This document shows, piece after piece, positions 9,649-38,765 of a DNA stretch of 41,165 bases. A program made the position numbers and the translations under genes. The stretch spans positions 1 to 41,165 of the forward strand of contig JACCXK010000219.1 in NCBI GenBank assembly GCA_013697055.1. The letters are read 5' to 3'. The notes under the pieces are model-generated. The model had not been told where the DNA came from. It saw nothing but the letters and a program-made list of their open reading frames with translations, and ran no database searches. Positions within the stretch are counted from its first letter, which is position 1, and every line of letters starts with the position of its first letter. The stretch is from Alphaproteobacteria bacterium (GTDB taxonomy: Bacteria > Pseudomonadota > Alphaproteobacteria > Micropepsales > Micropepsaceae).

Positions 9649-10710
9649 ATGGCCGCCGCTTTCATCAACCGCATCGCCACGGCCAATCCGCCGCACGACG
9701 TGCATGACACCTTCCTGCGCTTCGGCCGGCAGATGCTGCGCCATGACAATCGCCGCTCGGCCCTGTTCGACCGCATGGCGGAGCGCAGCGGCATTTCGCG
9801 GCGCTTCTCCTTTCTAGAACCGGGCGCACACGGCGCGGCGGTGGACGCTGAAGGCTTCTACAAGCTGGGCGCTTTCCCCGACACCGCAACACGGATGAAG
9901 AAGTTCGAAGCCTGCGCGCCGGGCCTGGCGGTGGAGGCGGTGGAGAAGCTTCTGGCGGGCGAAGACCGTTCGCGCATAACCCATGTCATTGTCACCAGCT
10001 GTACCGGCTTGTCGGCACCTGGCATCGATCTGGAATTGGTGGAACGCTGCGGCCTCAACCCGTCGGTCGAACGCACCATGGTCGGTTTCATGGGCTGCTA
10101 TGCCGCTATCAATGCGCTGAAGCTGGCGCGGCATATCGTGCGCTCGGAGCCTGGGGCGCGGGTGCTGGCGGTGAACCTGGAGCTCTGCACCCTGCATCTG
10201 CACGAGACCGACAATCTGGAGGAAATCCTCTCCTTCCTGTTGTTCGCCGATGGTTGCGCCGCTGCGTTGGTCAGTGCCGATCCGGTCGGCGTGGAGATGA
10301 CCTCGTTCCGCGCCGCGCTGGTGCCGGACACGCGCGAGCTGATCCGCTGGCATATCCGCGAGCAGGGTTTCGACATGGTGTTGTCGGGCGCAGTGCCCGG
10401 CGCCATTCGCACCGCCTTGTCGGAATCGCGTGACGACATACTGGGCGGCGCCAATGATATCGACCTGTGGGCAGTACATCCGGGTGGACGCACCGTGCTG
10501 GATGCGGTGGAGCAGGCTTTTGCCTTGCCGCCGGTGGCGCTGGCGGCGTCGCGCTCGGTGTTGAACGATTTCGGCAACATGTCGTCGGGCACGGTGATGT
10601 TCGTGCTGGACCGCATCATGCGCGAAGCGAATGCCGGACAACGCGGCTGCGCCATGTCCTTCGGCCCTGGCCTGGTGGCCGAGACCATGATGTTCCGCAT
10701 GGCGGCGTGA
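9649..10710 (+). CDS. Type III polyketide synthase (chalcone/stilbene synthase family)
   Basis: 353 residues, standard length. The Cys-His-Asn triad is complete: C118 in VTSCTGLSAPGIDLE, H277 in WAVHPGGRTVLDAVE and N310 in FGNMSSGTVMFVLD. The homodimeric cytoplasmic enzyme condenses an acyl-CoA starter with malonyl-CoA to give pyrones, resorcinols or phloroglucinols. Bacterial relatives next to methyltransferase and flavoprotein genes (Srs-type in Streptomyces) make methylated alkylresorcinols and quinones, so a phenolic lipid or alkylpyrone is the default guess. The start has an AAGGAA site. The stop codon overlaps the ATG of the methyltransferase by one base, so the genes are coupled. Confidence 0.95.
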   Translation: MAAAFINRIATANPPHDVHDTFLRFGRQMLRHDNRRSALFDRMAERSGISRRFSFLEPGAHGAAVDAEGFYKLGAFPDTATRMKKFEACAPGLAVEAVEKLLAGEDRSRITHVIVTSCTGLSAPGIDLELVERCGLNPSVERTMVGFMGCYAAINALKLARHIVRSEPGARVLAVNLELCTLHLHETDNLEEILSFLLFADGCAAALVSADPVGVEMTSFRAALVPDTRELIRWHIREQGFDMVLSGAVPGAIRTALSESRDDILGGANDIDLWAVHPGGRTVLDAVEQAFALPPVALAASRSVLNDFGNMSSGTVMFVLDRIMREANAGQRGCAMSFGPGLVAETMMFRMAA

Positions 10711-11381
10711 TGCGGGTACTGGTCCCGGAAATCCTGGATCATCTGGCGCCGGACGATCCGCGCGCCCTGCGCTCCCGCCGCGACCTGGCGCGGATCAACT
10801 GGGTGATGTGCCAGGCTGCGATCATGGCCAATACGTTGGCGGATTTTCCGGCGCCTAAAACGATCGCGGATATTGGCGGCGGCGATGGCCGCTTTCTGCT
10901 GTCGGTGGCGCGGCGGCTGGTGAAACGCTGGCCCGGCGTGAAGCTTGTGATCCTCGACCAGCAGGCGATTGTCAGCACCGAGACGCAGAGCAAGTTCGCG
11001 GCGCTGGGCTGGGACTGCGCGGCGATGCAGGGCGACATTTTCCAGACCTTGCCGCAGATCGCGCCCGACATCGTCACCGTCAACCTGTTCCTGCATCATC
11101 TGGAGGACGCGGCGCTGGCGCGATTGCTGGCATTGGTAGCCCGCCGCGCCAAAGGTTTCGCCGCCTGCGAACCGCGCCGTTCTGCTTTTGCCTTGCTCGC
11201 ATCGCATCTGGTGTTTGCGCTGGGCGCCAATGACGTGACCCGTCATGACGCGGTGGCCAGCGTGCGCGCCGGGTTCCGCGATAGCGAGTTGTCGCATCTG
11301 TGGCCGCAGGCCGGGGCCTGGCGGCTGGGCGAACAAGCTGCATTTCCTTTCACCCACGTGTTTAAAGCCCATGCGATATGA
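10710..11381 (+). CDS. Class I SAM-dependent methyltransferase of the type III PKS operon
   Basis: 223 residues from the ATG at 10710, which shares its A with the stop codon of the PKS gene. The SAM-binding motif I is ADIGGGDGRF at about residues 53-62. It is followed by VKLVILDQQ (motif II acidic end), an AAMQGDIF loop and VNLFLHHLEDAALARLL. The N-terminal helical part and the C-terminal FPFTHVFKA resemble small-molecule methyltransferases. It most likely methylates the phenolic or pyrone product of the adjacent synthase on O or C; which atom cannot be told. The last 11 bases overlap the FAD oxidoreductase gene. Confidence 0.88.
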   Translation: MRVLVPEILDHLAPDDPRALRSRRDLARINWVMCQAAIMANTLADFPAPKTIADIGGGDGRFLLSVARRLVKRWPGVKLVILDQQAIVSTETQSKFAALGWDCAAMQGDIFQTLPQIAPDIVTVNLFLHHLEDAALARLLALVARRAKGFAACEPRRSAFALLASHLVFALGANDVTRHDAVASVRAGFRDSELSHLWPQAGAWRLGEQAAFPFTHVFKAHAI

Positions 11382-12489
11382 CGCACTGATCATCGGCTCA
11401 GGTCCGGCCGGCTCCTCCGCCGCGCGGCTGTTGGCGCAGGCTGGCTGGCGCGTGGCGCTGGTGGAGAAGGCTGAGTTTCCCCGCCGCAAAGTGTGTGGCG
11501 AGTTCATTTCCGCCACCACCATGCCGGTGCTGAAGGATTGCGGCGTCGCCGTGCCCTTCATCGCCGCCGCGGGGCCGCTGGTGACGCGGGTGGGCATCTA
11601 TGCCGGCAAGGCGATGCTGGCGGCGCCGCGCGAACAATCCTGGGGCCGGGCGCTGGGCCGCGAGCATCTGGACGTGATGCTGCGCGATGCCGCGCGGACG
11701 GCGGGCGCCGAACTGTTCGCGCCCATGGAAGTCACCGCCGTGACACGCGATGGCGATGGCTTCCTCGGCACGCTGGATGACGGCCGCAGCATCGCCGCCC
11801 GCACCGTGATCGCCGCCTGTGGCTCGTGGAACACCAAGGGCGTTTTTGCGGTGCCGCTGGACGCGCCATCACCGTCGGACCTGTTCGCCTTCAAGGCGCA
11901 TTTTTCCGGCGGCGCTCTGCCGGACGGGCTGATGCCGCTTTTGGCCTTTCCCGGCGGCTATGGCGGGCTGGTGCACACGGATGAGGGCCGCATCTCCCTG
12001 TCCTGTTGCATCCGGCGCGATGCCATGACGGCGGCGCGCGCCCGGCATGGCGGCAAGGCGGCGGAGGCGGTGCTGGCGCATATCATGGAAACCACCCGGG
12101 GCGTGCAGGCGGCGCTGGGCGATGCCGGCCTGCAGGGCCATTTCCTCTCCACCGGGCCGATCCATCCGGGCATCCGCGCCCGCTTTTCGGACGGCATCTA
12201 TTTCACCGGCAATATCGCAGGCGAGGCCCATCCGGTGATCGCCGAAGGCATCAGCATGGCGATCCAGTCTTCCGGCTTGCTGGCCAAGCTGCTGATCGCC
12301 CATCGCGGCGAAACCTATGCGAAAGAGTGGAAGAAGCGTTTCGCACCCCGCATCCGCGCCGCGTCGGTCTTCGCGCATTTGGCGATGCGCGCACCCACCC
12401 GCTTTGCCAGTCTGACGGCGATCCGCGCCATGCCCGGATTGCTGGGACTGGGCGCGCGGCTGTCCGGCAAGGCGCCTATTTCAGCCTGA
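11371..12489 (+). CDS. FAD-dependent oxidoreductase (geranylgeranyl-reductase / aromatic hydroxylase fold)
   Basis: 372 residues from the ATG at 11371, overlapping the methyltransferase gene by 11 bases. The N-terminus has the dinucleotide motif GSGPAGSSAARLLA (residues 9-22), then VALVEKAEFPRRKVCGEFIS, the CGE pattern typical of the geranylgeranyl-reductase-like p-hydroxybenzoate-hydroxylase superfamily. The second FAD motif is GIYFTGNIAGEAHPVIAEGIS. In related type III PKS operons such flavoproteins hydroxylate the phenolic ring; reduction of a prenyl or polyene chain is the alternative. Its last 14 bases overlap the convergent chalcone-isomerase-like gene. Confidence 0.9.
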   Translation: MRYDALIIGSGPAGSSAARLLAQAGWRVALVEKAEFPRRKVCGEFISATTMPVLKDCGVAVPFIAAAGPLVTRVGIYAGKAMLAAPREQSWGRALGREHLDVMLRDAARTAGAELFAPMEVTAVTRDGDGFLGTLDDGRSIAARTVIAACGSWNTKGVFAVPLDAPSPSDLFAFKAHFSGGALPDGLMPLLAFPGGYGGLVHTDEGRISLSCCIRRDAMTAARARHGGKAAEAVLAHIMETTRGVQAALGDAGLQGHFLSTGPIHPGIRARFSDGIYFTGNIAGEAHPVIAEGISMAIQSSGLLAKLLIAHRGETYAKEWKKRFAPRIRAASVFAHLAMRAPTRFASLTAIRAMPGLLGLGARLSGKAPISA

Positions 12490-13009
12490 GCAGCTTGTTG
12501 CGCAGGGAGGGGCTGGATGTATTGGGGAGCAGCCAGAGGCCGAAGAAATCCTTGGCATAGACATTGTCGATGCTGCCGGTCGGCGCGCCGTTGTGGAAGA
12601 AGGCGATCGGCTTGCCGGGGATATACAGCGCCATCAGCCGGTCACCCGCCTTCACCGGCGGATAGACCTTGTTCAGTTGCGGCGTCAGCTTGGCGATCTC
12701 GGCATCGCCCAGCCCCGGATCGACGTGCTTCATTTCCTTGATGGTGCGTTCGGTCAGGTCGGAGGTGTCGAAGCCCATGCCATAGGTGATTTCCATGGCT
12801 GAGGGCGCCTCCATCGACCAGCCGGCGGCATCGGTCCAGAAGCGGGCGTTATAGGCATTGATGAAAAGGAAATTCATATGGCCTTCGCCATAGGGCTTGT
12901 CGGCCTTGATGGTGCCGGCGATCTCGGGCGGAGCGGCCAGCGCCGACTTCGATACCAAAAGTGAAGCTGCGCCGAGCAGAAGCATCAGAAGGGCGAATTT
13001 GCGGTTCAT
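12476..13009 (-). CDS. Exported chalcone-isomerase-like protein (Chalcone_3 type)
   Basis: 177 residues with a signal peptide (cleavage near SALAAP). The mature part matches the bacterial chalcone-isomerase-like family: FINAYNARFWTDAAG, MEITYGMGFDTSDLTERTIKEM, VKAGDRLMALYIPGKPIAFF and the ending FFGLWLLPNTSSPSLRNKLL. Plant chalcone isomerase cyclises chalcones. Bacterial members of this branch are mostly exported, with no proven reaction, and catalysis should not be assumed. It converges on the type III PKS operon and overlaps its last gene by 14 bp, so the two units could interfere in transcription. The start at 13009 has weak spacing but gives the signal peptide directly. Confidence 0.85.
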   Translation of the reverse strand: MNRKFALLMLLLGAASLLVSKSALAAPPEIAGTIKADKPYGEGHMNFLFINAYNARFWTDAAGWSMEAPSAMEITYGMGFDTSDLTERTIKEMKHVDPGLGDAEIAKLTPQLNKVYPPVKAGDRLMALYIPGKPIAFFHNGAPTGSIDNVYAKDFFGLWLLPNTSSPSLRNKLLRLK

Positions 13010-13065: not shown

Positions 13066-14178
13066 ATGCGGCTCAAGCACGTGGCTCTGACCAGCCTGAT
13101 ACTGCTGGCCCCCGCACCCGCGCTGGCGGCGAAATACATCATGTATGTCGGCAGCTACACCGCCGGCACGTCCAAGGGCATCTACGCCTGGCGGTTCGAC
13201 AGCAAGGACGGCAGCCTGTCCTCGCTGGGACTGATGGCGGAAACGCCGCAGCCAGCGCATGTCTGGATCGCGCCCAATGGCAAGACGCTCTATGCCGTGA
13301 ACTGGGAGACGGTCGGCGGGGTCAGCGCCTATCACATCGATGCAAAAACCGGCGCGCTGACGTTCCTCAACAAGACCTCGGCGCATGGCGCCCAGCCCAA
13401 CCAGGTGGTGGTGGATCCGAGCGGCAGGATCGCGGTGACGGTGAATTATACCAGCGGGTCGCTGGCGGCTTACAAGCTGGAGCCGGATGGCAAGCTGGGC
13501 GAAGCATTCTATGTTAATCAGCACACCGGCAAGCCGCTGTCGCCCAAGCAGCCGGGCCCCAAGCAGCACGGCATCCAGTTCAGCAAGGACAACAAGTTCA
13601 TGTTCATTGCCGACCTGGGGCTGGACCGGGTTTACAGCTACCACTTCGACGCCACCGCGCCGTCGATCACGCCGGCCGATCCGCCTTATGTGAACACCCA
13701 TGCCGGGGCCGGCCCGCGCCGCATCCAGATGTCGCCGGACGGCAAGTTTCTGTATGTCGATCACGAGACGGATTCCGAAGTCGGCGTCTATGCTATCGAT
13801 GGCGGCAAACTGACGGAGATCCAGGTGCTGCCCACGGTGCCGGAAGACGCCAAAGCCAAGAACACCACCGCTGAATTGGTGATTTCGGCCGACGGCAGAA
13901 ACCTCTATGTCGGCAATCGCGGCCATGACAGCGTGGCGGTGTTCGCCATCGACAAGAAGACCGGCATGCTGACCTCGAAGGAAAATGTCCCCTCGGGCGG
14001 ACGCACGCCGCGCAATCTGCGGATAGATCCCACCGGCAACTGGTTCTTCGCCGCCAACGAGAATGGCGGCAATGTCACCGAGTTCAAGATCGACCGGGCC
14101 AGCGGCCACATCACGCCCACCGGCGTCACGGTGCCGATCAACACGCCGGGCGGGATGGTTTTCCTGAAAGTGAAATAA
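13066..14178 (+). CDS. Exported lactonase-family beta-propeller protein (6-phosphogluconolactonase-like)
   Basis: 370 residues from the ATG at 13066 (AGGGGAAAC upstream) with a signal peptide ending near PALAAK. The mature chain is a seven-bladed propeller of the Lactonase (PF10282) family: YIMYVGSYTAGTSKGIYAW, AHVWIAPNGKTLYAVNWE, NQVVVDPSGRIAVTVNY, GPRRIQMSPDGKFLYV and RNLRIDPTGNWFFAANENGG. The blades repeat the S/DPxGxxL/FY pattern. Cytoplasmic relatives hydrolyse 6-phosphogluconolactone; exported ones probably act on unphosphorylated sugar lactones or are of other use. In this context it could open lactones produced by the PQQ dehydrogenase at 19568. It converges with the LamG gene with only 3 bp between stops. 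Confidence 0.9.
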   Translation: MRLKHVALTSLILLAPAPALAAKYIMYVGSYTAGTSKGIYAWRFDSKDGSLSSLGLMAETPQPAHVWIAPNGKTLYAVNWETVGGVSAYHIDAKTGALTFLNKTSAHGAQPNQVVVDPSGRIAVTVNYTSGSLAAYKLEPDGKLGEAFYVNQHTGKPLSPKQPGPKQHGIQFSKDNKFMFIADLGLDRVYSYHFDATAPSITPADPPYVNTHAGAGPRRIQMSPDGKFLYVDHETDSEVGVYAIDGGKLTEIQVLPTVPEDAKAKNTTAELVISADGRNLYVGNRGHDSVAVFAIDKKTGMLTSKENVPSGGRTPRNLRIDPTGNWFFAANENGGNVTEFKIDRASGHITPTGVTVPINTPGGMVFLKVK

Positions 14179-14181
14179 CTA

Positions 14182-14880
14182 CTACGGCACCTTGAGAAAC
14201 TCGCGCGGGCTGAGCGCGTGGTCGGTGAAACGCGCCTCCGCCACCGAACCCTTGAACCAGTTCACATGGTTCATCCGCACTCCTACCATCATGTGGCCCG
14301 CGCCATGCGGGGTGAAGGCGACATCGGCTTCGCCTTCCAGCACGCCGTTGACATACGAGCGATAGGTCTTGCCGTCATAACTTTGCGCCACCGCGTACCA
14401 CTGGTTGGCCGGATGGGTCTTGGTCGGATCGATCAGCGCCTTGCTGCCGGACGCGCTGTTGACGAAGGCGTCCAGCCACCACTGGCCGTCTTTCTGACGC
14501 ACCTCGAACATGAAGCGGGGGTTGGGATCGGAGACGCCGTTCGGGTTGGCGTCCAGGCCCGTCTTGGGATCGGTCTCGGCGATGTGCATCCAGCGTTGTT
14601 CCAGCGCACCGCCTTCGGGGCGGATGATGGCCTCGATGGTGAAGGTCTTGGCGCCGACCAGCGGACGGCTGGGGAAGAACAGGGCGGTATCGGCGCCGTT
14701 GAACTGCACCGCCTTGCCGACGGGCGAATCCACCAGCTGCGGCGCGCCTTCCACCTTCGGCACAATCCCGCCGATGCGCGACAGGTTGTTGAACTTCCAC
14801 GCCGTTTGCGCTGCCGCGGCGCCGGTGGAAATCGCCAGCACGCCCAAAAGCACGGCAAGCCGGATGCTGCACTTGCTCAT
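14182..14880 (-). CDS. Exported LamG / concanavalin A-like domain protein
   Basis: 232 residues. The start at 14880 is chosen because GGGGAG precedes it and a signal peptide follows (LAVLLGVLAISTGAAAAQ). The mature chain is one jelly-roll of the LamG/laminin-G-3 type: GKAVQFNGADTALFFPSRPL, KTFTIEAIIRP, NQWYAVAQSYDGKTYRSYVN and FKGSVAEARFTDHALSPREF. Such domains bind or, rarely, cleave polysaccharides. No other domain is attached, so it is probably a periplasmic carbohydrate-binding protein. It is divergent from the cupin-dehydratase operon (100 bp apart) and faces the lactonase gene tail to tail. Confidence 0.8.
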   Translation of the reverse strand: MSKCSIRLAVLLGVLAISTGAAAAQTAWKFNNLSRIGGIVPKVEGAPQLVDSPVGKAVQFNGADTALFFPSRPLVGAKTFTIEAIIRPEGGALEQRWMHIAETDPKTGLDANPNGVSDPNPRFMFEVRQKDGQWWLDAFVNSASGSKALIDPTKTHPANQWYAVAQSYDGKTYRSYVNGVLEGEADVAFTPHGAGHMMVGVRMNHVNWFKGSVAEARFTDHALSPREFLKVP

Positions 14881-14980
14881 AACATCTCCCCGGAACGTTC
14901 TTCTTTGGCGCCGACGTTGACGCTTAAGCCCCGGCGCTGCAATCTCCCGGCAACAAAAAACATTGGCGGGGAGTGGCTTA

Positions 14981-15910
14981 ATGAGATCGCTGGTTCTGGG
15001 ATTGGTGGCGCTTGCGCTGGGCACGACCAGTGTGCTGGCGCAGGCCGGCGGCGAGAAGGGCCCCGAACGCACCGTTTGGGCGGCGCACAAGGACACGCCC
15101 TATACCGGCGTCAACAAGCCGGTGACGCACGTCGCCGATATCCTGAAAGCCCATCAGGGCAAGCAAAGCTGGGATCAGCCCGTGATGCTGACCCGCGACT
15201 ATGACGGCCATTACATTTCCATGGCGCCGGGCGAGAAGACCAAGTGCCAGTTCTATGCCGATGACCGGGTGTTCGGCTGGATCCATAGCGGCCAGGTCAA
15301 GATCACGATTGATGGCCAGCAGCCTGTCACCGCTACCAAGGGCTATCTGTTCGATGTGGCGCCGCGCCTTGCCTATTGCATGGAGAATACCGGCACAGAG
15401 CCGGTGGTGTTCTACCGCTCCACACCAGCGGGCCAAGTGCCCTCCTATCCGGAAAACGAAACGCCCACGCCTGTCGCCGGCTATCATTATGACAAGGCCA
15501 AGATCACCTCGACCGGCGGCTATGAGGCGGGTAACCAGCCTTCGCTGGATTTCAATGCCTATGCCGCCGGCGGCGGCAAGAGCCGTGACTTCGCCATGGA
15601 TGGTCATACATCCGCGCACATCATCCGCGCCGGCGCCATCACCAAGCTGCCGCCGGACACAAGCTGGGGTCATTTCCACGAGAATATGGTGGAAGCCTGG
15701 GTGGTGATCGAAGGCCAACTCGATGTGTTGGTGACGGGTTACGGCATTGTACATGGCGAAACGGGCGATGTGATCCAGGCCAATGACACGCGCTGGCACC
15801 GGGCGACCTGCGCACCCAACACCGGTTCCTGCACGCGCCTGGCCATGACGCCGCGTCTGAAGGAAGGCCAGGTGCATTATTTCCAGACCGACCAGCCACC
15901 GGGTAACTGA
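14981..15910 (+). CDS. Exported two-domain cupin protein
   Basis: 309 residues from the ATG at 14981, preceded by GCGGGGAG; a TTG at 14963 is less likely. A signal peptide ends near SVLAQA. The first cupin barrel (about residues 70-150) has the fold pattern (FGWIHSGQVKITIDG, GYLFDVAPRLAYCMENTG) but lacks the usual His cluster. The second (about 210-300) has a good metal-binding motif, GHFHENMVEAWVVIEGQLDV, and RWHRATC. It is therefore a bicupin with probably one metal site, an isomerase, dioxygenase or sugar-acid-binding protein. It is the first gene of a plus-strand operon, five bases before the dehydratase. Confidence 0.85.
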   Translation: MRSLVLGLVALALGTTSVLAQAGGEKGPERTVWAAHKDTPYTGVNKPVTHVADILKAHQGKQSWDQPVMLTRDYDGHYISMAPGEKTKCQFYADDRVFGWIHSGQVKITIDGQQPVTATKGYLFDVAPRLAYCMENTGTEPVVFYRSTPAGQVPSYPENETPTPVAGYHYDKAKITSTGGYEAGNQPSLDFNAYAAGGGKSRDFAMDGHTSAHIIRAGAITKLPPDTSWGHFHENMVEAWVVIEGQLDVLVTGYGIVHGETGDVIQANDTRWHRATCAPNTGSCTRLAMTPRLKEGQVHYFQTDQPPGN

Positions 15911-15914
15911 GGGG

Positions 15915-17180
15915 ATGACAATGGATCGCCGCAAGCTGCTCGCCATGGGCGCAGTGTCGTGTTTCGCACTGCCGTACCAGGCACGCGCCCAGTATCTGAA
16001 AAAGAAGGTCAAGATCACCGACGTCAAGGTGATGATCGTGCGCGGTCCCACCTGGGACTGGAACCTGTTCAAGATCGAAACCGATGCCGGTGTCTATGGC
16101 ATCGGCGAGGGCTATTGGGGTCCGGGCGCCAAGGACATTACCCTCAAGCGCTTCAAGGAGCAATTGATCGGCGAAGACCCGCTGAATGTGGTCAAGCTCT
16201 ATACCAAGCTGCTCTTTCTCAATGGCGGCTATGGCGCCACCGGCGGCCTGACCTATCACGCCGCGTCGGGCATTGAGATCGCGCTGTGGGATCTGGCGGG
16301 ACGGCTGCTGCAGACGCCGGTGTGCAACCTGTTGGGCGGCCGTTTCCGCGACAAGGTGCGCTTCTACCGCACCCTGCAGGCGCCGGAGCATAATCCCGCC
16401 GAAGCAGCGTCCTGGGGTCAGCAGGCGGCGGACGCCATCGCCCACAATCCCTTCGGCTTTACGGCTTTCAAGTTCCAGGGCGACTCGGTGCCGACCACTG
16501 CCGATCCGGACTTCAAGGAACCGGGACATGACCGCTACACCAACGAGTTGACCAACCGCGACATTCGCCGCTTGGTCGACCGCATGGACCGGGTGCGCGC
16601 AGCCATCGGTCCCGATGTGGACATGGCGATCGAGTGCCATTGGAAATATTCGGTCAATGACGTAATCAAATACTGCAACGCGCTGGAGCATGTGAACCCA
16701 TTATGGGTCGAAGACGCCACCCCGCCGGAAAATGTTGAGACCATGGAGCGGGTGTCGCGCGCCACCAACGTGCCGCTCTGCACAGGTGAAAATCTCTATG
16801 GGTTGGCGCAGTTCGCCCCTTTGGTCATTCGCCAAGCCTGCGCCGGGGTGCATATCGACATCCCCAAGTCGGGCGGATTGTTCGAAGCCAAGCGCATTGC
16901 CGACCTCGCCGATCTCTATGGCATCTGGACCGCTTGCCACAATCCGGCCAGCGCGGTGGGCACCATCGCATCGGCCCATGCGGCAGCCTCGGTGCGCAAT
17001 TTCCGCGTCCATGAACTGGCGGGCGGGCGCGATCAATGGACCTTCGACATGGTCACGCATGAAGGCCCGTTCTTCAAGGACGGCTATTTCGTGATCCAGG
17101 ACAAGCCGGGTCTGGGCATCGATCTCAATCCGGATGTGGTGAAGGCGCACCTGGCGCCCGATGAAAAATGGTGGGGGTGA
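15915..17180 (+). CDS. Enolase-superfamily (mandelate racemase/sugar-acid dehydratase) enzyme with Tat signal
   Basis: 421 residues. The N-terminus MDRRKLLAMGAVSCFALP, ending near ARAQ, is a twin-arginine signal, unusual for this normally cytoplasmic superfamily. The start is ATG 15915 or ATG 15921. The capping domain is followed by a barrel with metal ligands E240 (in IECHW), E266 (in WVEDATPPE) and E292 (in CTGENLYG), evenly spaced by 26. H242 and H342 (in ACHNPAS) are candidate acid/base residues. The first ligand is Glu instead of the common Asp. Sequence features fit the mannonate/galactonate dehydratase side of the family (ALWDLAGRLLQTPVCNLLGG). It would dehydrate a sugar acid to a 2-keto-3-deoxy acid in the periplasm. 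Confidence 0.9.
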   Translation: MTMDRRKLLAMGAVSCFALPYQARAQYLKKKVKITDVKVMIVRGPTWDWNLFKIETDAGVYGIGEGYWGPGAKDITLKRFKEQLIGEDPLNVVKLYTKLLFLNGGYGATGGLTYHAASGIEIALWDLAGRLLQTPVCNLLGGRFRDKVRFYRTLQAPEHNPAEAASWGQQAADAIAHNPFGFTAFKFQGDSVPTTADPDFKEPGHDRYTNELTNRDIRRLVDRMDRVRAAIGPDVDMAIECHWKYSVNDVIKYCNALEHVNPLWVEDATPPENVETMERVSRATNVPLCTGENLYGLAQFAPLVIRQACAGVHIDIPKSGGLFEAKRIADLADLYGIWTACHNPASAVGTIASAHAAASVRNFRVHELAGGRDQWTFDMVTHEGPFFKDGYFVIQDKPGLGIDLNPDVVKAHLAPDEKWWG

Positions 17181-17184
17181 GGCC

Positions 17185-17203
17185 CGACCGGCTTCGCCGG
17201 TCG
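17185..17203 (+). other. Intercistronic hairpin between dehydratase and cupin genes
   Basis: CGACCGGC (17185-17192) pairs perfectly with GCCGGTCG (17196-17203) across a TTC loop, a few bases after the dehydratase stop codon. No T-run follows, so it should not end transcription. It could protect the upstream mRNA segment from 3' decay and uncouple expression of the two halves of the operon. Confidence 0.5.
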
Positions 17204-17282
17204 AACGCGGCGAGCTTGGGCGCGCCGCCGGGTGGCAGGAGTTATGGCGCCGCGCGAGCGGCTAAGAGAAGGAGTCACGGAT

Positions 17283-17729
17283 ATGCGTGCTTTGTTCACA
17301 ACACTCTTGATTGGCGGCGCGATCCTGGCGACCGGGGTGATGGCCGAGGATTACATGGTCGTTCCCAAGGCCAGCCAGAAGTTCAAGGCCGGTCCCGGCA
17401 ACTTCTACAGCCAGGACCTGCTGCTCAATCACAAGAATGCCCAGGCCAATATCACCCTGCGCGACAAGAGCGGTCAGGCCGAAGTCCATGCTGCTTGGGA
17501 AGATCACATCTTCATCCTGGACGGCGAATGCATCCTGATGTTGGGCGGCACGGTTGAAAATCCCAAGTCGACCGGACCCGGCGAGACGCGCGGCGACAAT
17601 GCCAAGGGCGGCAAAGCCTTCATGGTGCATGCCGGCGACTATATTTATGTGCCGGTCAACACGCCGCATCAGATGATCCTGGCGGCCGGCAAGTCCGTCA
17701 AATATGCCGTGGTCAAGAACCATCCCTGA
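17283..17729 (+). CDS. Exported single-domain cupin protein
   Basis: 148 residues from the ATG at 17283, behind AGAAGGAG. A signal peptide ends near TGVMAE. One cupin barrel follows: ANITLRDKSGQAEVHAAWE, DHIFILDGECILMLGG and GDYIYVPVNTPHQMILAAGK. His residues in EVHAAWEDH and TPHQ could hold a metal. Small exported cupins of this kind often accompany sugar-acid or aromatic catabolic genes, but their function is not established. It is in the same operon as the dehydratase and 12 bases upstream of the RraA-like gene. Confidence 0.82.
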   Translation: MRALFTTLLIGGAILATGVMAEDYMVVPKASQKFKAGPGNFYSQDLLLNHKNAQANITLRDKSGQAEVHAAWEDHIFILDGECILMLGGTVENPKSTGPGETRGDNAKGGKAFMVHAGDYIYVPVNTPHQMILAAGKSVKYAVVKNHP

Positions 17730-17741
17730 CAGGAGTCCGTT

Positions 17742-18713
17742 ATGCTGAAAATGCTCAGGCCGCTTTTGCTCGGCTCTCTGGCGCTGGTCCTCGCCGCGCC
17801 GGCCATGGCGCCCGCATACGCGCAAGTCAAGCAGACCCGCGAACAGATGATGTTCTATACCTCGCAATGGAAGGGCGAGCGCTTTCCCGACGGCCGCCCC
17901 AGGGTGCCGGACGACCTGCTCAAGCGGGTGGTGAATGTTTCCATCGAAGATCTATGGGACTATCTGCGCGACAAGGGTTTCGATTGCCAGTTCGATACCG
18001 GTTACCAGATGCTGCATCCGGAAAAGCCCTTCGCGGGCAGGGCGCTGACGACGCAATACATGCCGCTGCGCCGCGACATGTATGACGCCATCGCCGCCGA
18101 AGGAAAGCGCGAAGGCCGGGTCAGCGGCAACAACAGCTGGCCCATCGCCGAGCTGAAGGAAGGCGACATGTATGTCGCCGACGGTTTTGGCAAGATCGTG
18201 GAAGGCACCCTCATTGGTTCCAACCTGGGTTCGGGCATCGCCACCCATTCCAAGACCGGTTTCGTGTTCGACGCCGGTATCCGCGACGCGGAGGAAAACC
18301 GCGCATTGGAGAATATGAACGGTCTCTACCGCGCCTATGACCCTTCCGCTTGGAAGAACATGACCCTGACGTCCATCAATGCGCCCATCCGCATTGGGAG
18401 GGCGACGGTGCTCCCGGGCGATCTGGTGCTGGCCAAGAATGACGGCGTGATCTTTGTCCCGGCCTATCTGGCGGAGGACGCGGTGTCTCATGCCGAGTTC
18501 ATCAATCTGGAAGACGCCTTCAACTTCGACCTCAACCGCTCGGGCAAGAATGGCGGCGAGTTCGAGGGCGGCTGGAATGCGAAGAAGTACGGCGCCTTTG
18601 TCACCTGGATCGACGCCAATCCCGGCAAGCTGCACATGAGCCGCGCTGAGTTCGACGCGATCCTGGCCGAGCGCAAGAGCCGTCTGCAGAACGTGTCCGG
18701 CGCTCCGAAATAG
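17742..18713 (+). CDS. Exported RraA / HMG-aldolase-family protein
   Basis: 323 residues, longer than cytoplasmic RraA (about 160). CAGGAGT precedes the ATG. A signal peptide ends near PAYAQ. The core carries the family signature GFVFDAGIRD, with R181 and D182 equivalent to the catalytic Arg and metal-binding Asp of 4-hydroxy-4-methyl-2-oxoglutarate aldolases, and the C-terminal GDLVLAKNDGVIFVPAYLAE. True RraA proteins (RNase E inhibitors) lack an aldolase role, but the retained R-D pair argues for retro-aldol or decarboxylase chemistry. The extra parts are an N-terminal stretch before the core and a C-terminal helix region. Last gene of the operon starting at 14981. Export of this fold is unusual. 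Confidence 0.85.
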   Translation: MLKMLRPLLLGSLALVLAAPAMAPAYAQVKQTREQMMFYTSQWKGERFPDGRPRVPDDLLKRVVNVSIEDLWDYLRDKGFDCQFDTGYQMLHPEKPFAGRALTTQYMPLRRDMYDAIAAEGKREGRVSGNNSWPIAELKEGDMYVADGFGKIVEGTLIGSNLGSGIATHSKTGFVFDAGIRDAEENRALENMNGLYRAYDPSAWKNMTLTSINAPIRIGRATVLPGDLVLAKNDGVIFVPAYLAEDAVSHAEFINLEDAFNFDLNRSGKNGGEFEGGWNAKKYGAFVTWIDANPGKLHMSRAEFDAILAERKSRLQNVSGAPK

Positions 18714-18822
18714 GCTTTTCCAGAGTCGGAAAACCGGTGTGCGCCGCACCATCCCTCGTGCGGCCGCCCGCCGGTCCGGCCTGGCTTGGCGTACAAAGAA
18801 CAAGCAAATAACGCTGTATTTT

Positions 18823-18856
18823 TGGGCATTTCGCCCATGGTGACGGCATTGTCACC
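18823..18856. repeat. Two adjacent inverted repeats in the 18714-18954 gap
   Basis: TGGGC-ATTTC-GCCCA (18823-18837) is followed at once by GGTGAC-GGCATT-GTCACC (18839-18856). Neither has a T-tract. They lie about 100 bp upstream of the small PAGVH protein gene and could be operator or leader structures. A further short stem, TTTTCC/GGAAAA, occurs just after the RraA-like gene, near 18718-18736. No gene is seen in the gap. Confidence 0.35.
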
Positions 18857-18954
18857 GCTTGTCCAATTTGTCGCAGGGGTCATTGTGCAATTGCGAATGG
18901 AAATTTCAGCGCCTTCGCTATCGTTTTTCCACGGATTCACTGTTGGAGAGACAC

Positions 18955-19182
18955 ATGCGAAACATCACCGCCACCCTGCTGGCTGCCGGCCTTCTGATTT
19001 CCACCGGGGCAAATGCGGCGGACGGCGCCCTGCCGGCCGGCAAGCCCGCCGGCGTCCATCAGGCCGAGCTTCTCACCACGCCGGTGATCATCGTCGGTGT
19101 GGTGGCCGCCGCCGCGGCCGGCATCGCCATCGGTACTTCCAACAGCGCGCCCGCCACGGTGGTGGTCGCGACCAGCCCGTAA
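18955..19182 (+). CDS. Small exported/membrane protein with PAGVH motif (paralogue of 2724)
   Basis: 75 residues from the ATG at 18955 (TTGGAGAG upstream). A signal peptide (ITATLLAAGLLISTGANA) precedes the motif LPAGKPAGVHQA. A Val/Ala/Gly-rich hydrophobic segment follows (TPVIIVGVVAAAAAGIAIG), then a short Ser/Thr/Val tail. The order and the GxPAGVHxA motif match the protein at 2724-3002. The small size, strong terminator directly behind it and its own spacer upstream suggest a separately transcribed, abundant envelope protein. Function unknown. Confidence 0.65.
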   Translation: MRNITATLLAAGLLISTGANAADGALPAGKPAGVHQAELLTTPVIIVGVVAAAAAGIAIGTSNSAPATVVVATSP

Positions 19183-19205
19183 AAGGCCGCGTTTTTTTGC
19201 GAATA

Positions 19206-19234
19206 AAGCCCGGCGCGTCGCGCCGGGCTTTTTT
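19206..19234. terminator. Strong intrinsic terminator after the small PAGVH gene
   Basis: An 11-bp GC-rich stem (AAGCCCGGCGC / GCGCCGGGCTT, 19206-19216 with 19220-19230) with a 3-nt loop, followed by a T-run through 19234. On the minus strand the hairpin is followed by TTTATT, so it may also serve the convergent gene ending at 19233. Confidence 0.9.
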
Positions 19235-19547
19235 ATGGCTTGTCGGATTTGTTCCGGTCGTCCGGATGCCAGCCGTCGAAATCGGGCAAGAGGGCGATAA
19301 GAGCCAGAAACAGCGCCAGCCCGGTGAACACCGCCAGCAGTTCCGCGTTGCTTGGTTCCGGCGGTTTGACCGCGATCTCCCGCTCCCACATCACCTGCGG
19401 GGACGGTTTCCAGAAAACCGGCATGGCGCCGGGCGAATTGCAACGGATCATATCGCCCTTTGGTGTGAAGCAGGTTCTGCCCGCCAATGCCGGTGTCACG
19501 GCAAGGCTGGCGGCAGCAAAGGCAAGGATCACGATCCAGGCGCGCAT
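19233..19547 (-). CDS. Small membrane-anchored protein downstream of the PQQ dehydrogenase
   Basis: 104 residues. The start at 19547 is behind TAGGAGTG, and the gene follows the PQQ dehydrogenase by 20 bp on the same strand. An N-terminal signal peptide (ILAFAAASLAVTPALAG) is followed by a short Cys pair region (RTCFTPKGDMIRCNSPG), a linker and a hydrophobic C-terminal span (AELLAVFTGLALFLALIALL). It thus looks like a periplasmic domain held by one C-terminal membrane helix. It could be an anchor or accessory subunit for the soluble-looking dehydrogenase, but that rests on position alone. Confidence 0.6.
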   Translation of the reverse strand: MRAWIVILAFAAASLAVTPALAGRTCFTPKGDMIRCNSPGAMPVFWKPSPQVMWEREIAVKPPEPSNAELLAVFTGLALFLALIALLPDFDGWHPDDRNKSDKP

Positions 19548-19567
19548 GGCGCCAGCACTCCTACGTG

Positions 19568-21442
19568 TCAGTCCCCCAAGGTATAGGCGACAAAAGCGCT
19601 GCCCTTGGCCGCCTTGCGGTCATGGCTGGTGCTGGCGGCGATGGCGACATACTGCTTGCCGCCTACCATGTAGGTGATGGGCGTGGCGTTGCCGGCGAAA
19701 GGCAGCTCGGTCTCCCACAAGAGCTTGCCGGTCTTGCTGTCAAAGGCGTGCAGCTTGCGGTCGAAATCGCTGGCCCCGATGATCAGCAAGCCGCTGGCGG
19801 TGACCACCGCGCCGCCATAGCTCTCGCTGCCGGTATCCTTCTGCCCTTTCGCCACCAGTTCGGGATAAGTGCCGAACGGAATGCGCCAGGCGAACTTGCC
19901 AGTCTTCAGGTCGATGGCGGTAAGATGGCCCCAGGGCGCGGCGGTGGCGGGATAGCCGTCCGGGTCCTTGAACTTGTTGTAGCCCGAAAAGGTATAGCGC
20001 GACTGGCTGCCCGGCAGGTCGGGGCCTTCCACCCGTGTCCGGTCCTTGCGGTCGATCACCGCCGTGGTCCACATCACATTCTCGGTATTGGCGAAGAGAT
20101 ATTGCAGCTTGGGATCGAAACTCATGCCGCCCCATTCGCTGCCGCCTGAAAAGCCCGGCGCCGACACGGTTTCCTGCTTGTAGGCGGGCGGGGTGAACGG
20201 GGGACCGTTGAGGAAGGTGGCGAATTTCTCGCGCGCCCATGTGTTGGCTTCCGGCGTGCGCTGGGTCAGTTCGTCGGCCGACACCGTCTGGTGCGACAAG
20301 GGCGGCGGCGCGGTGGGAATCGGCTGTGTCGGCCAGGCGGTGTCGCCCGGGGCGGTGGCCGGCGGCACCGGCACTTCGTTGATCGGGAACAGGCTCTCGC
20401 CGCTCTGGCGGTCGAAGACATAGACATAGCCGGTCTTGTTGGTGGCGGCGACGGCGTCGATGGTCTTGCCGTTCTTGGTCACCAACACCAGGATCGGCGG
20501 CGCCGCGAAGTCATTGTCCCATTCGTCATGATGCACGGTCTGGAAATACCAGCGCATCTTGCCGGTCTGGGCCTCCAGCGCGATCACGCTGTTGGCATAG
20601 AGATTCTTGCCGGGCCGTTCGCCGCCATAGAAATCGTCCGACGCCGAGCCGGTGGCCGCGAAAAGGATGCCACGTTTGGCATCCATCACCATGCCGGGCC
20701 AGTCATTGGCGCCGCCGGCGGTCTTCCAGGCATCGGCCGCCCAGGTCTCGGCATTGGGTTCGCCCGGATGGGGAATGGTGTGGAAGGTCCAGACCAGCTT
20801 GCCGGTGCGCACGTCCCAGGCGCGGATATCGCCGGGGGAGGCGGGGGTCTGCTCGCCAACCTCGCCGCAGGTGAAGAACAGGTCGTGCCACACATTCACC
20901 GCCCCGCCATGGCGGACATAATTCACGGCAGCGGCCCCGCGCAGATTGTCGTTCAGGTCGATGCGGCCATTGTCGCCGAAAGCCGGATCGGGCTGGCCGG
21001 TGGCCGGGTCCAGCGAATAGATAAAGTTGGAAGCCGGCACCAGCAGCCGGCTGGTCTTGCCGTCGCTCCACCAGCTTTCGCCGCGGGGGAAAAAGCCCGC
21101 CCGCGAGCGTTGCGGCAGGGTAGGGGCATAGACCCATTTTTCCTTGCCGGTGGCCGCATCCAGGGCGATGACCTTGCCGGCGCCCACGCCATACAGAACT
21201 CCGTCCACCACGATGGGCGTATTCTGCAGCGCGACGTCAGGCTTGATGTCATAGCGCCAGGCTTGTTTCAGCTTGTGGACATTCCCGGCCTTGATCTGGG
21301 TCAGAGCGGAATAGTGGCTGCCGCCCGCATCGCCGAAGGGATAGGAGGAATTGCCCTGCGCGTCCTTGGCCTGCGCCAGCGACGCCGCCGCCAGCAACGA
21401 TGCCGCGCAAAGCGTGATGCGGTGTTTCAAGTGTGCAGCCAT
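19568..21442 (-). CDS. PQQ-dependent dehydrogenase (glucose/sugar dehydrogenase type)
   Basis: 624 residues with a signal peptide ending near SLAQAK. The mature chain is an eight-bladed PQQ propeller: YPFGDAGGSHYSALTQI, NVHKLKQAWRYDI, QNTPIVVDGVLYGVGAGK, VIALDAATGKEKWVY, TGSASDDFYGGERPGKNLYA and the late GGAVVTASGLLIIGAS. These resemble the propeller of membrane glucose dehydrogenase rather than alcohol dehydrogenases: no adjacent-Cys disulfide motif stands out, and there is no fused heme domain and no N-terminal transmembrane bundle. It should oxidise a sugar or polyol in the periplasm, sending electrons to quinone or a cytochrome. First gene of a minus-strand pair, divergent from the sigma factor gene. 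Confidence 0.9.
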   Translation of the reverse strand: MAAHLKHRITLCAASLLAAASLAQAKDAQGNSSYPFGDAGGSHYSALTQIKAGNVHKLKQAWRYDIKPDVALQNTPIVVDGVLYGVGAGKVIALDAATGKEKWVYAPTLPQRSRAGFFPRGESWWSDGKTSRLLVPASNFIYSLDPATGQPDPAFGDNGRIDLNDNLRGAAAVNYVRHGGAVNVWHDLFFTCGEVGEQTPASPGDIRAWDVRTGKLVWTFHTIPHPGEPNAETWAADAWKTAGGANDWPGMVMDAKRGILFAATGSASDDFYGGERPGKNLYANSVIALEAQTGKMRWYFQTVHHDEWDNDFAAPPILVLVTKNGKTIDAVAATNKTGYVYVFDRQSGESLFPINEVPVPPATAPGDTAWPTQPIPTAPPPLSHQTVSADELTQRTPEANTWAREKFATFLNGPPFTPPAYKQETVSAPGFSGGSEWGGMSFDPKLQYLFANTENVMWTTAVIDRKDRTRVEGPDLPGSQSRYTFSGYNKFKDPDGYPATAAPWGHLTAIDLKTGKFAWRIPFGTYPELVAKGQKDTGSESYGGAVVTASGLLIIGASDFDRKLHAFDSKTGKLLWETELPFAGNATPITYMVGGKQYVAIAASTSHDRKAAKGSAFVAYTLGD

Positions 21443-21567
21443 GCCCCGTTTGACGGCACTATAGCAGCCGGGGCCGTGGCTGCATACGGCTTTTGCGCCG
21501 TATTCCGCTTGTTAACCGACCGGATACCGGACCTTGCCAATCGCACACGCCGGTCCTTAGATGGGCT

Positions 21568-22170
21568 ATGTCATTCTCGGACGAACGGGCGATCTGGCTT
21601 GGGCGGCATGTGCTCCCACATGAACCGGCTTTGCGCGCCTGGCTGCGCCGTCGCCGGTTGGGCGGGCTCGATATCGACGACATCATCCAGGAGACCTATA
21701 CGCGGCTGGTCGCGGCCGAGAGCGTCGCCCATATTCATGACGCCAAAAGCTATACCTTCCAGATCGCGGGTTCGGTGGTGATCGACCACCTGCGCCGCAT
21801 GAAGGTGGTCTCCATCGCCTCGGTTCCGGACCTGGATACCCTCGAGGTTGTGAGCGACGATCCCTCGCCGGAGCGCCAGGTGATCGACCGCGACGAGCTG
21901 CACCGCCTGGCCCAGATGATCGCCCGCCTGCCGGGCAAGGTCCGCGACGTATTTACCTTGCGGCGGGTCTATGGCCTCAGCCAGCGCGAGGTTGCGGCAA
22001 AGCTGGGACTTGCGGAAAGCACCGTGGAAAAGCATATGAGCCGCGGATTTTTAATCATGCTGGACGAATTCGGGTATGGCGGAAAAGAACCCTCCCATAC
22101 GTCTAGTCCCAGATCAGAAAAAGCCGGGATTCAAAGGTTCGATGTCAGGAAAGACCGCTCATCAGATTGA
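21568..22170 (+). CDS. ECF-type RNA polymerase sigma factor
   Basis: 200 residues from the ATG at 21568. The ribosome binding site is weak, so a few codons of uncertainty remain. Region 2 is seen in LGGLDIDDIIQETYTRLVA and SYTFQIAGSVVIDHLRRMK; region 4 in VRDVFTLRRVYGLSQREVAA and LGLAESTVEKHMSRGF. The C-terminal 30 residues (KEPSHTSSP onward) extend past region 4 because the reading frame continues into the FecR gene. It heads a sigma-FecR-TonB receptor set and probably transcribes the receptor genes when the receptor is occupied. Confidence 0.93.
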   Translation: MSFSDERAIWLGRHVLPHEPALRAWLRRRRLGGLDIDDIIQETYTRLVAAESVAHIHDAKSYTFQIAGSVVIDHLRRMKVVSIASVPDLDTLEVVSDDPSPERQVIDRDELHRLAQMIARLPGKVRDVFTLRRVYGLSQREVAAKLGLAESTVEKHMSRGFLIMLDEFGYGGKEPSHTSSPRSEKAGIQRFDVRKDRSSD

Positions 22171-23113
22171 CTCCGAGGCGGCCGATTGGGCCGCCCGGTT
22201 CGATCGCGGGCCGTTGACGGCCAGCCTGGAACAGGAGTTCCGGGCCTGGCTGGACGGCGATGTGCGCTCTCTGGGCGCCTATGCCCGCATCCGGGCCGTG
22301 GCGCTGGCCACCGAACGGGCCCGGGCGCTGGGCCCGGATTTCGATCCCGCCGCCTTTGTGACCGCCCCGCAACGACTGCCCCGCCGCCGGGTGTTGCAGA
22401 TGGGCGGCGCCATCGCCGCCACCCTTTTGGTTGGCGCGGGGGCGACTTGGCAGCTGCTGCGCAATCGCGGCCGCTTCACCACCGCCAAGGGAGAGACCAA
22501 GGTGATCGCGCTGAAGGATGGTTCGGTCGTGACCCTCAACACCGCCTCCGAAATCCTGGTGAATTATTCCGACGCCCTGCGCTCGGTCGAACTGGTGCGC
22601 GGTGAGGCCCTGTTCGACGTGGCCAAGAACAAGGCCCGCCCCTTTGTGGTCGCCGCCGGCGATACAAGCGTGCGGGTGGTGGGCACCAGCTTCAGCGTCA
22701 GCCGCTTCGATGCCGCCCCGGTCCGGGTGCTGGTGCGCGAAGGCATCGTGGAAGTGTTCAAGCCCAGCGCCCTGAACGTCCAGCCGGTGCGCATCACCGC
22801 CAACACCATGGCGATGGCGCCCGCCGACCATGCCGACATTGTCGCCCAGGCCGTGCCTTCGGCGCAGGTCCGCCGCGCCATGGCCTGGCAGGAAGGCCAG
22901 ATCGCCTTTGAAGGCCAGACCCTGGCCCAGGCGGCGGCGGAATTCTCCCGCTACAGCGACACCAAGATCGTGGTCGAGGATCCGGCGCTGGCCCGCGAAG
23001 AAATCGCCGGCCTGTTCAAGGCCACCGATCCGGTCGGCTTCGCCAATACCATCGCCATCAGCCTGAACGCCCATGTCCGGGTCGGGGAAGGGGAAGTGCG
23101 ACTGACGCGCTGA
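22076..23113 (+). CDS. FecR-family anti-sigma factor
   Basis: 345 residues if started at 22076; the ATG at 22142 (AAAGG upstream) would give 323. Either start overlaps the end of the sigma gene (95 or 29 bp). Domains: an N-terminal DUF4880/FecR_N part (EAADWAARFDRGPLTASLEQ), one membrane span preceded by RRR at 103-105 (RRRVLQMGGAIAATLLVGAG, which looks Tat-compatible), the FecR periplasmic domain (KVIALKDGSVVTLNTASEIL, VVGTSFSVSRFD) and a DUF4974-type end (FEGQTLAQAAAEFSRYSDTK). It should hold the sigma factor inactive until signalled by the STN domain of the receptor at 23193. Confidence 0.93.
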   Translation: MAEKNPPIRLVPDQKKPGFKGSMSGKTAHQIDSEAADWAARFDRGPLTASLEQEFRAWLDGDVRSLGAYARIRAVALATERARALGPDFDPAAFVTAPQRLPRRRVLQMGGAIAATLLVGAGATWQLLRNRGRFTTAKGETKVIALKDGSVVTLNTASEILVNYSDALRSVELVRGEALFDVAKNKARPFVVAAGDTSVRVVGTSFSVSRFDAAPVRVLVREGIVEVFKPSALNVQPVRITANTMAMAPADHADIVAQAVPSAQVRRAMAWQEGQIAFEGQTLAQAAAEFSRYSDTKIVVEDPALAREEIAGLFKATDPVGFANTIAISLNAHVRVGEGEVRLTR

Positions 23114-23151
23114 ATGAGCGCGACATGGCGTACGGCCTTATCAAGGGCCGC

Positions 23152-23190
23152 AAGAGCCTTCCGAGCAAGGCCGTGAATGTTTCAGGGGGA
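23152..23190 (+). promoter_or_regulatory. Leader hairpin and strong RBS of receptor 1, conserved in receptor 2
   Basis: AAGAGCCTT at 23152, a GCCTT-CCGAGC-AAGGC stem-loop (23156-23171) and the ribosome binding site CAGGGGGA (23183-23190) precede the ATG at 23193. The same elements in the same order precede the second receptor at 26567. The loop sequence differs while the stem is kept, which suggests that the structure matters. Confidence 0.5.
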
Positions 23191-23192
23191 TT

Positions 23193-26414: not shown

Positions 26415-26522
26415 ACAGTCGAGGCGTCCTCGCTTCAGCAATAGCAACCGCGCACGCGAACGATATCAAAAAGGTATCGCCCGGCATGGCGGATTTGTGA
26501 TCCCCCGCCCGTCTAGGTCCCG

Positions 26523-26562
26523 AAGAGCCTTCAACAGAAGGCCGTAACATGTCCCAGGGGGA
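26523..26562 (+). promoter_or_regulatory. Leader hairpin and strong RBS of receptor 2
   Basis: AAGAGCCTT at 26523, a perfect GCCTTC-AACA-GAAGGC stem-loop (26527-26542) and CAGGGGGA (26555-26562) precede the ATG at 26567. This is the counterpart of 23152-23190. The rest of the 26415-26522 gap holds a small CGAGG-CGT-CCTCG stem and no gene. Confidence 0.5.
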
Positions 26563-26566
26563 ATCC

Positions 26567-32333: not shown

Positions 32334-32380
32334 TTGCCAGTCCGGTCCGGCTCTGGCTGAATAGACCGCAAGGGTGATCC

Positions 32381-33859: not shown

Positions 33860-33911
33860 TATTATTCACAAAAAAGCCAGCGCGTGGTTTCTTTCGATTG
33901 CACAGCATTTG

Positions 33912-33925
33912 TTGCGTTCCATCAA
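33912..33925 (+). promoter_or_regulatory. Fnr/FixK-like site upstream of the cytochrome P460 gene
   Basis: TTGCGTTCCATCAA resembles the Fnr consensus TTGAT-N4-ATCAA (8 of 10 defined bases) and lies 59 bp before the ATG at 33984, in an AT-rich stretch. An oxygen-linked control of a heme protein would make sense, but a single weak match can be chance. Confidence 0.25.
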
Positions 33926-33983
33926 ATTTTCAAATGAACCAGCGCCGGGAATTGGCCCGGCCCTGTGACGTGGAGGTCCATTC

Positions 33984-38761: not shown

Positions 38762-38765
38762 GCGT

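Follow-up and report, generated by a model that had tools for sequence, protein, structure and literature searches.

Can a sugar acid be dehydrated, and the product split, outside the inner membrane by enzymes whose relatives work in the cytoplasm? This question is raised by a stretch of 41,165 bases (63% GC; at its full length called the window below), which belongs to contig 43 of a draft assembly (3.77 Mb, 256 contigs, 97% complete) of an alphaproteobacterium of the family Micropepsaceae (GCA_013697055.1, contig JACCXK010000219.1). It encodes a dehydratase-like protein of the mandelate racemase subgroup of the enolase superfamily (MR) and, close by, a protein of the RraA/HMG-aldolase fold (RraA), each led by a predicted export signal. 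Gene neighbourhoods show MR and RraA to be the part that is conserved, and the pyrroloquinoline quinone (PQQ) dehydrogenase, the lactonase-family protein and the two cupins encoded around them are facultative. We propose that these two enzymes form a periplasmic core module, in which a sugar-acid dehydratase (MR), exported by twin-arginine translocation (Tat), would feed an RraA-type lyase exported through Sec, and we give this proposal about an even chance of being right. The protein families are known; what would be new, we infer, is the compartment.

Predicted export signals and active sites of MR and RraA

Signals are predicted at the start of the lactonase, the LamG protein, cupin A, MR, cupin B, RraA and the PQQ dehydrogenase (Table 1). 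That of MR is of Tat type (MDRRKLLAMGAVSCFALPYQARA), with the cut placed between DRRKLLAMGAVSCFALPYQARA and QYL and a mature start at about residue 26, and the host genome encodes TatC. Pfam matches, the signal detector and conservation thus bear out the preliminary description of this DNA in its claim that six genes, each with a predicted export signal, lie at or near the places it gave. The detector is a purpose-written heuristic scoring charge, a hydrophobic stretch and small residues ahead of the cut, and is not SignalP. It is permissive, reaching a score of at least 3.3 in 175 of 594 open reading frames (ORFs; at least 120 residues, from 51 distinct loci), and it returns false positives, so the run of signals along the locus, taken alone, is only suggestive of export. 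Firm evidence for the signals, as read from sequence, is instead their conservation across relatives.

RraA was compared at 42 main-group loci beyond the window (13 alphaproteobacterial, 29 acidobacterial). A recognisable signal is found at 41 of these, the exception being a C-terminal fragment at L053; six further loci score below 3.0, the lowest 1.9. In six sampled relatives the signal is 24-52% identical to that of the window's copy and the mature protein 64-92% identical. Of 19 acidobacterial loci, 17 have the predicted cut immediately in front of a conserved Gln-Val/Ile, and the remaining two have it two residues earlier. Signals also precede the part shared with proteins of solved structure, the match in each of the 60 chains listed of 172 starting no earlier than residue 27; in RraA, 55-70 residues come before the domain matched, and the protein ends in a helical C-terminal extension. 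For MR, the twin arginine is kept in all 12 aligned main-group sequences, drawn from 12 genomes (the L057 row is shortened at its end), and it is readable in the MR of Acidobacteriaceae bacterium KBS 89 (L064), a sequence to which no start codon is assigned. The fragment at L053 (9802-10104) has a full-length MR nearby.

Both enolase domains of MR (PF02746 and PF13378) exceed their cut-offs, and the fold is backed by matches in the PDB and by a predicted model (predicted local distance difference test, pLDDT, 85), whose top fold match, 2qq6, has a title that names no function. E240-C-H242, E266, E292, D315, H342 and E367 do not vary across the 12 main-group rows (E240 and H242 read from the alignment). 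From family knowledge we assign to them three acidic metal ligands, a His-Asp dyad and another His following strand 3, which we take to be the set expected of acid-sugar dehydratases. The D-galactonate, D-mannonate and L-rhamnonate dehydratases DgoD, ManD and RhmD have in common with MR the fold, the metal ligands, the His-Asp dyad, the acid His and the best model scores. They are, however, cytoplasmic and signal-free, whereas MR carries a Tat signal and reaches 187 of the 311 bits demanded by the galactonate dehydratase model.

RraA matches PF03737 above its cut-off, and its predicted model (pLDDT 84.5) matches HMG/CHA aldolase (3noj) and RraAS2 (5x15), as well as 2c5q. The site reads S160-X20-R181-D182-X2-E185, and R181, D182 and E185 are invariant among the 42 main-group sequences covering these positions, the window's included (the L053 fragment lacks them). 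The fold and the catalytic Arg-Asp are shared with 3noj and 5x15, which are cytoplasmic; RraA differs from these relatives in its Sec signal, its leading residues, its helical C-terminal extension and a Ser at the first motif position. For HMG/CHA aldolase, the available text of PMC5065237 describes Arg-123 as essential and Asp-124 as a ligand of the metal. Against the LigK model (TIGR02798) RraA scores 48.6 bits, short of the cut-off of 304.5. A role as regulator of RNase E was rejected on its score against NF006875 (24.2 bits, cut-off 136) and on its signal peptide.

Recurrence of the pair across genomes

Neighbourhoods were counted in 14 alphaproteobacterial genomes with a main-group RraA (the window's own, 12 other same-genus assemblies and L056); several contigs are short and the counts are lower bounds. 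MR adjoins RraA in 12 of the 14. Near RraA are also found the LamG gene (8), the lactonase (6), cupin A (5, at least 75% identity), cupin B (5, two of them at 45-52% identity) and the PQQ dehydrogenase (4, at least 80% identity), and the complete set occurs in four genomes (the window's, G001, G018 and G048).

The pair extends to a second phylum. Main-group RraA was found in 24 of 150 genomes of one acidobacterial order, at 61-74% identity, and two sets of acidobacterial loci were examined: 19 from those 24 genomes and a separate ten, five of which come from genomes that also belong to the 24. Ten of the 19 have an MR-family gene no more than about 7 kb away from RraA, and in four a related PQQ dehydrogenase gene accompanies RraA; in the second set, MR stands next to RraA in seven of ten. 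UxuA-like genes (mannonate dehydratase family), whose products have twin-arginine N-termini, were assigned by cluster near RraA in six of the 19 loci, one member having been tested against Pfam. The pair is present in KBS 89, where a related PQQ gene is again near RraA, and this being a strain-named record, testing in culture may be possible. In strains S8, KBS 146 and dw_441, an exported RraA was found with no MR gene in the examined stretch. The preliminary description had pointed to co-occurrence of signal-bearing versions in other genomes as a check, and the RraA signals (41 of 42 loci), the twin arginines of MR (12 of 12) and the pairing in Alphaproteobacteria and Acidobacteria agree with it.

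In a wider search, 40 of 100 genomes (the window's own included) gave an RraA-family match, strong only in same-genus genomes, with a best E-value elsewhere of 1e-17. A quick FastTree placement puts most alphaproteobacterial RraA sequences inside the acidobacterial ones, with L044 and L045 outside, which tentatively suggests transfer between the phyla. At L044 (9568-10527) and L045 (6999-10331), RraA without MR lies near Tat-type proteins of about 365 residues (one at L044, two at L045); these have no Pfam match, and the L045 copy tested has no PDB relative up to an E-value of 0.1.

More than one such set appears to be encoded by the host. Fourteen of its proteins exceed the PF13378 cut-off, and a fifteenth match, below it, resembles enolase itself. 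Eight of the 14 have a twin-arginine N-terminus and six do not. Five of the eight score at least 3.2 with the detector (C43, that of the window, C105, C38, C228 and C156). The remaining three are C185, with a weak score of 1.6, C31, which the detector rejects and whose N-terminus was identified by eye, and MR2, a second enolase-superfamily protein of the window, in which the signal coding is interrupted. The interruption was found by frame comparison and may be a mutation or an assembly error; the relatives of MR2 at L041, L042, L043 and L056 bear Tat signals (MLTRRHTLAGLLGP..). The galactonate dehydratase model (NF010624, cut-off 311 bits) is passed by MR2 (Table 1), by C185 (326.9 bits), by a signal-free copy on C143 (670.7 bits) and, among the relatives of MR2, by that at L043 (360 bits), the start of which is an intact Tat-type one. 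Of the four RraA-family proteins in the host, three look exported, that on C164 weakly.

A second exported MR-RraA pair lies on C105, 29% (MR) and 40% (RraA) identical to that of the window and with a quinoprotein gene nearby. The same second pair is found at six other same-genus loci, divergently placed near genes for KdgD, glucarate dehydratase and galactarate dehydratase, representatives of which exceed their cut-offs (KdgD of L050, 426 against 374 bits; glucarate dehydratase of L047, 831.6 against 828.7; galactarate dehydratase of L047, 881 against 731). C105 itself, a contig of 14.7 kb, showed no member of those sugar-acid gene clusters.

Substrate and extent of the proposed pathway

From these features we would infer the following scheme in its export, substrate, products and order of steps. 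MR would be exported folded via Tat and bind Mg2+ through E240, E266 and E292; the His342-Asp315 dyad would provide the base and His242 the acid for dehydration of a sugar acid (an aldonate, uronate or aldarate) to the 2-keto-3-deoxy acid. RraA, exported via Sec, would cleave or decarboxylate this product at an Arg181/Asp182-Mg2+ site; the probable outcome, an aldehyde together with pyruvate or a comparable small keto acid, would then be taken up. The cupins may serve as metal-dependent helpers in isomerisation or ring opening and, where present, the PQQ dehydrogenase and lactonase could supply the acid from a sugar. Such steps would need only bound metal or PQQ, and no NAD, ATP or coenzyme A. 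The RraA family includes aldolases, decarboxylases and one dehydratase/decarboxylase, and C-C cleavage by RraA is for this reason not assured.

Several observations weigh against the proposed module. With the studied families excluded, the detector still gives at least 3.3 to 104 of 466 ORFs from the same loci, and an apparent false positive, ORF 4168-5139 of the window, which is evidently cytoplasmic (thioredoxin-reductase-like by eye), scored 3.2. None of the NCBIfam dehydratase models that match MR does so above its cut-off (best, NF010624, 187.4 against 311 bits). The only host twin-arginine proteins over the galactonate dehydratase cut-off are those with a broken (MR2) or weak (C185) signal. 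Position 160 of RraA is Ser in 42 of 42 main-group sequences; the aldolase alignment has Asp there, and all nine exported paralogs read D-X20-R-D. Ser160 replaces the Asp or Gly of the two motifs that we take to be catalytic, D-X20-R-D and G-X20-R-D-X2-E/D. RraA also occurs with no MR-family gene nearby, in two of the 14 alphaproteobacterial genomes (L044 and L045) and in nine of 19 and three of ten acidobacterial loci. Lastly, the genes for a D-serine-dehydratase-like protein (PF14031) and RidA that flank RraA at L042 and L043 hint at amino-acid-like substrates.

The view that RraA is catalytically dead for want of the motif Asp is weakened by the invariance of its Arg-Asp and of the following Glu in the main group. 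A Gly at the first motif position together with the downstream Glu/Asp reportedly also supports activity.

The alternative that survives best, which we regard as possible but doubtful, is that MR and RraA act on non-sugar or otherwise unrelated substrates, RraA being a decarboxylase or aldolase of oxaloacetate or hydroxy-keto acids and MR a racemase, epimerase or dehydratase of acids derived from amino acids or aromatics. RraA-family enzymes do decarboxylate oxaloacetate, an activity that also figures among the family names in the model matches, and members of the mandelate racemase subgroup also racemise or cycloisomerise. The flanking PF14031 and RidA genes, tested at L042 (7732-9224) and assigned by cluster at L043 (7336-8880), fit such substrates, as does a signal-bearing RidA that precedes the exported RraA at L065 (9370-9897). 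Sugar acids are favoured instead by the models, since the best match of each of ten scanned MR-family proteins is an acid-sugar dehydratase, although only three of the ten (the signal-free control, MR2 and C185) pass a cut-off. The neighbourhoods point the same way, with the paralogous pair lying beside glucarate and galactarate genes and UxuA-like genes accompanying the acidobacterial RraA.

Next in strength is a longer version of the sugar-acid reading, close to the periplasmic pathway of the preliminary description, in which the PQQ dehydrogenase would oxidise a free aldose to the lactone, the lactonase open it, MR dehydrate the aldonate and RraA split the keto-deoxy acid. A span of 8.4 kb holds all of its parts, each with a signal, four of the 14 alphaproteobacterial genomes have the complete set, and related PQQ genes are near RraA in four of the 19 acidobacterial loci and at L064. 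Across the host genome, quinoprotein genes lie within 10 kb of six of the 14 MRs and three of the four RraA genes (binomial P 0.0044 for MR and 0.0069 for RraA, against 12% of the genome), but within 5 kb the counts are three of 14 (P 0.08) and three of four (P 0.0015), and all of these P values are flattered by a test that treats clustered genes as independent. The PQQ dehydrogenase and lactonase are, moreover, missing near most pairs and belong to separate transcription units, and PF10282 proteins have varied roles. We consider the four-step route unlikely and, with the PQQ dehydrogenase, lactonase and cupins facultative, it was ruled out as the conserved unit. What stands of the earlier proposal is the predicted export of dehydratase-type and RraA-type proteins and a functional link between them, adjacent in 12 of 14 genomes with catalytic residues intact; a fixed route from free sugar does not stand, the PQQ dehydrogenase being found near RraA in four and the lactonase in six of the 14 and both lying outside the four-gene run.

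The supply of cofactor also bears on the longer route. The PQQ dehydrogenase scores 386 bits against TIGR03074 (cut-off 832.65), matching model positions 161-782 of 783, and leaves unmatched the first 160, the N-terminal membrane region; the lactonase-family protein scores 133 bits against the 6-phosphogluconolactonase model NF008258 (cut-off 370). The 3.8 Mb draft genome holds about 31 quinoprotein dehydrogenase genes, yet gives no match to pqqC and none over the cut-off to pqqE, a result in which a draft may have missed a gene. Over the cut-off, pqqC was found in three and pqqE in four of 61 genomes (one and two, respectively, of the 37 of the same genus). For want of these genes, PQQ would have to be scavenged from outside, or the proteins run without it, and the host group is possibly a PQQ scavenger or cofactor-free. 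According to the available part of a 2025 paper (PMC12124388), the importer PqqU is largely absent from Alphaproteobacteria.

The remaining alternative, that the N-terminal stretches only anchor the proteins or fail to export them and the enzymes stay in the cytoplasm like their relatives, is very improbable: export is a prediction, made with a detector that marks 104 of 466 unrelated ORFs, but the signals persist while their letters change, they precede the part shared with solved relatives, and signal-free paralogs coexist in the same genome.

We return to the two-enzyme module and its closest known systems. No description of exported enolase-superfamily dehydratases together with exported RraA was found among the open-access papers listed, a scope outside which most subscription papers fall; within it, nothing was found either that describes the all-periplasmic pathway for which the preliminary description knew no precedent, and related chemistry is known. 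Quinate oxidation in acetic acid bacteria is PQQ-dependent and periplasmic. As far as the available text of PMC9171043 goes, it proceeds through an NAD(P)-independent quinate dehydrogenase and then two dehydratases, and so resembles the longer route in its membrane-side oxidation followed by dehydration of an acid, but differs in its dehydratase families, in having no C-C lyase step and in ending at protocatechuate. Exported fusions of chorismate mutase and cyclohexadienyl dehydratase (PMC10520331, in part) likewise place two consecutive, normally cytoplasmic steps outside the inner membrane; their chemistry, in contrast, is that of aromatic amino acids and the enzymes are fused. The RraA-family protein FlDet, a 2-keto-3-deoxy-D-glucarate dehydratase/decarboxylase from an alginate degrader, acts on a 2-keto-3-deoxy sugar acid, as proposed here for RraA, but belongs to an oxidative alginate route, and the word periplasm is absent from the main text of the paper as available (PMC8563752). 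Genes for mannonate dehydratase and RraA appear together in one cluster figure for mannan-degrading haloarchaea in the accessible portion of PMC10963439.

If the module is real, some Acidobacteria and Alphaproteobacteria would carry out central sugar-acid chemistry, dehydration and C-C cleavage, in their periplasm, a function would be suggested for Tat-exported proteins annotated as mandelate racemase and Sec-exported proteins annotated as RraA family, and models of sugar uptake, of cross-feeding on pyruvate or small aldehydes and of PQQ as a shared good would change. In its furthest form, which we think improbable, sugar acids would be broken down completely outside the inner membrane by a non-phosphorylative, Entner-Doudoroff-like sequence without NAD, ATP or coenzyme A. 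A cell would hold two or more paralogous sets, the system having moved between Acidobacteria and Alphaproteobacteria, and with PQQ from the environment it would oxidise, dehydrate and cleave sugars ahead of their uptake, so as to import only pyruvate-sized products.

Locus layout and neighbouring genes

The tight plus-strand run consists of cupin A, MR, cupin B and RraA only, with gaps of about 4, 102 and 12 bases. The opposite-strand LamG gene stands between the lactonase and this run, and the PQQ dehydrogenase gene is convergent to it; gene order and strand rule out a single operon for all six of the genes first named. The second domain of cupin A shows a His-x-His..Glu..His set by eye, and the protein has no PDB relative by sequence up to an E-value of 0.1. 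Cupin B has two weak PDB sequence matches of quercetinase type (E 0.03).

Table 1. Genes of the MR-RraA locus, with MR2, in window coordinates.
Feature	Position	Strand	Evidence and remarks
7-bladed beta-propeller lactonase-family protein	13066-14178	+	PF10282, E 4.4e-99; Sec signal, predicted cut after residue 21
LamG/concanavalin-type protein with signal	14182-14883	-	PF13385, E 7e-18; absent from the preliminary description
Cupin A, two cupin domains, Sec signal	14981-15910	+	PF07883, two stretches
MR, enolase-superfamily (mandelate racemase subgroup) dehydratase-like protein, Tat-type signal	15915-17180	+	PF13378 and PF02746
Cupin B, single domain, Sec signal	17283-17729	+	PF07883
RraA/HMG-aldolase-fold protein, Sec signal	17742-18713	+	PF03737 above cut-off
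PQQ dehydrogenase, glucose/quinate type, with signal, without the family's N-terminal membrane region	19568-21442	-	PF01011, E 2e-173
MR2, second enolase-superfamily protein, galactonate-dehydratase family	35623-36800	-	NF010624, 347.6 bits against cut-off 311; start provisional

A type III polyketide synthase gene and two more ORFs share 9649-13009 with the gene for a chalcone-isomerase-like protein that is exported. The synthase and the two ORFs have relatives of 60-92% identity next to MR and RraA in several alphaproteobacterial loci, which makes a conserved polyketide block the neighbour of the pair. Beside the PQQ dehydrogenase gene, the plus strand at 21493-29551 encodes an extracytoplasmic function (ECF)-type sigma factor (by eye), FecR and two large TonB-dependent receptors, one of which has a weak STN match. 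There follow at 30376-34514, on the same strand, a flavin amine oxidase of Tat type (by eye), an exported cytochrome c, an exported protein of 492 residues with no Pfam match and a cytochrome P460. L056 is syntenic for the amine oxidase, the cytochrome c and the 492-residue protein, and has a second copy of the last. Beside MR2, the minus strand at 36876-40022 carries a cytoplasmic set made up of a short-chain dehydrogenase/reductase, a flavin mononucleotide (FMN)-type L-lactate dehydrogenase, which is over one subfamily cut-off, and a major facilitator superfamily protein, whose best model is a galactonate transporter, below its cut-off. The set resembles what we take to be non-phosphorylative L-fucose or galactonate use.

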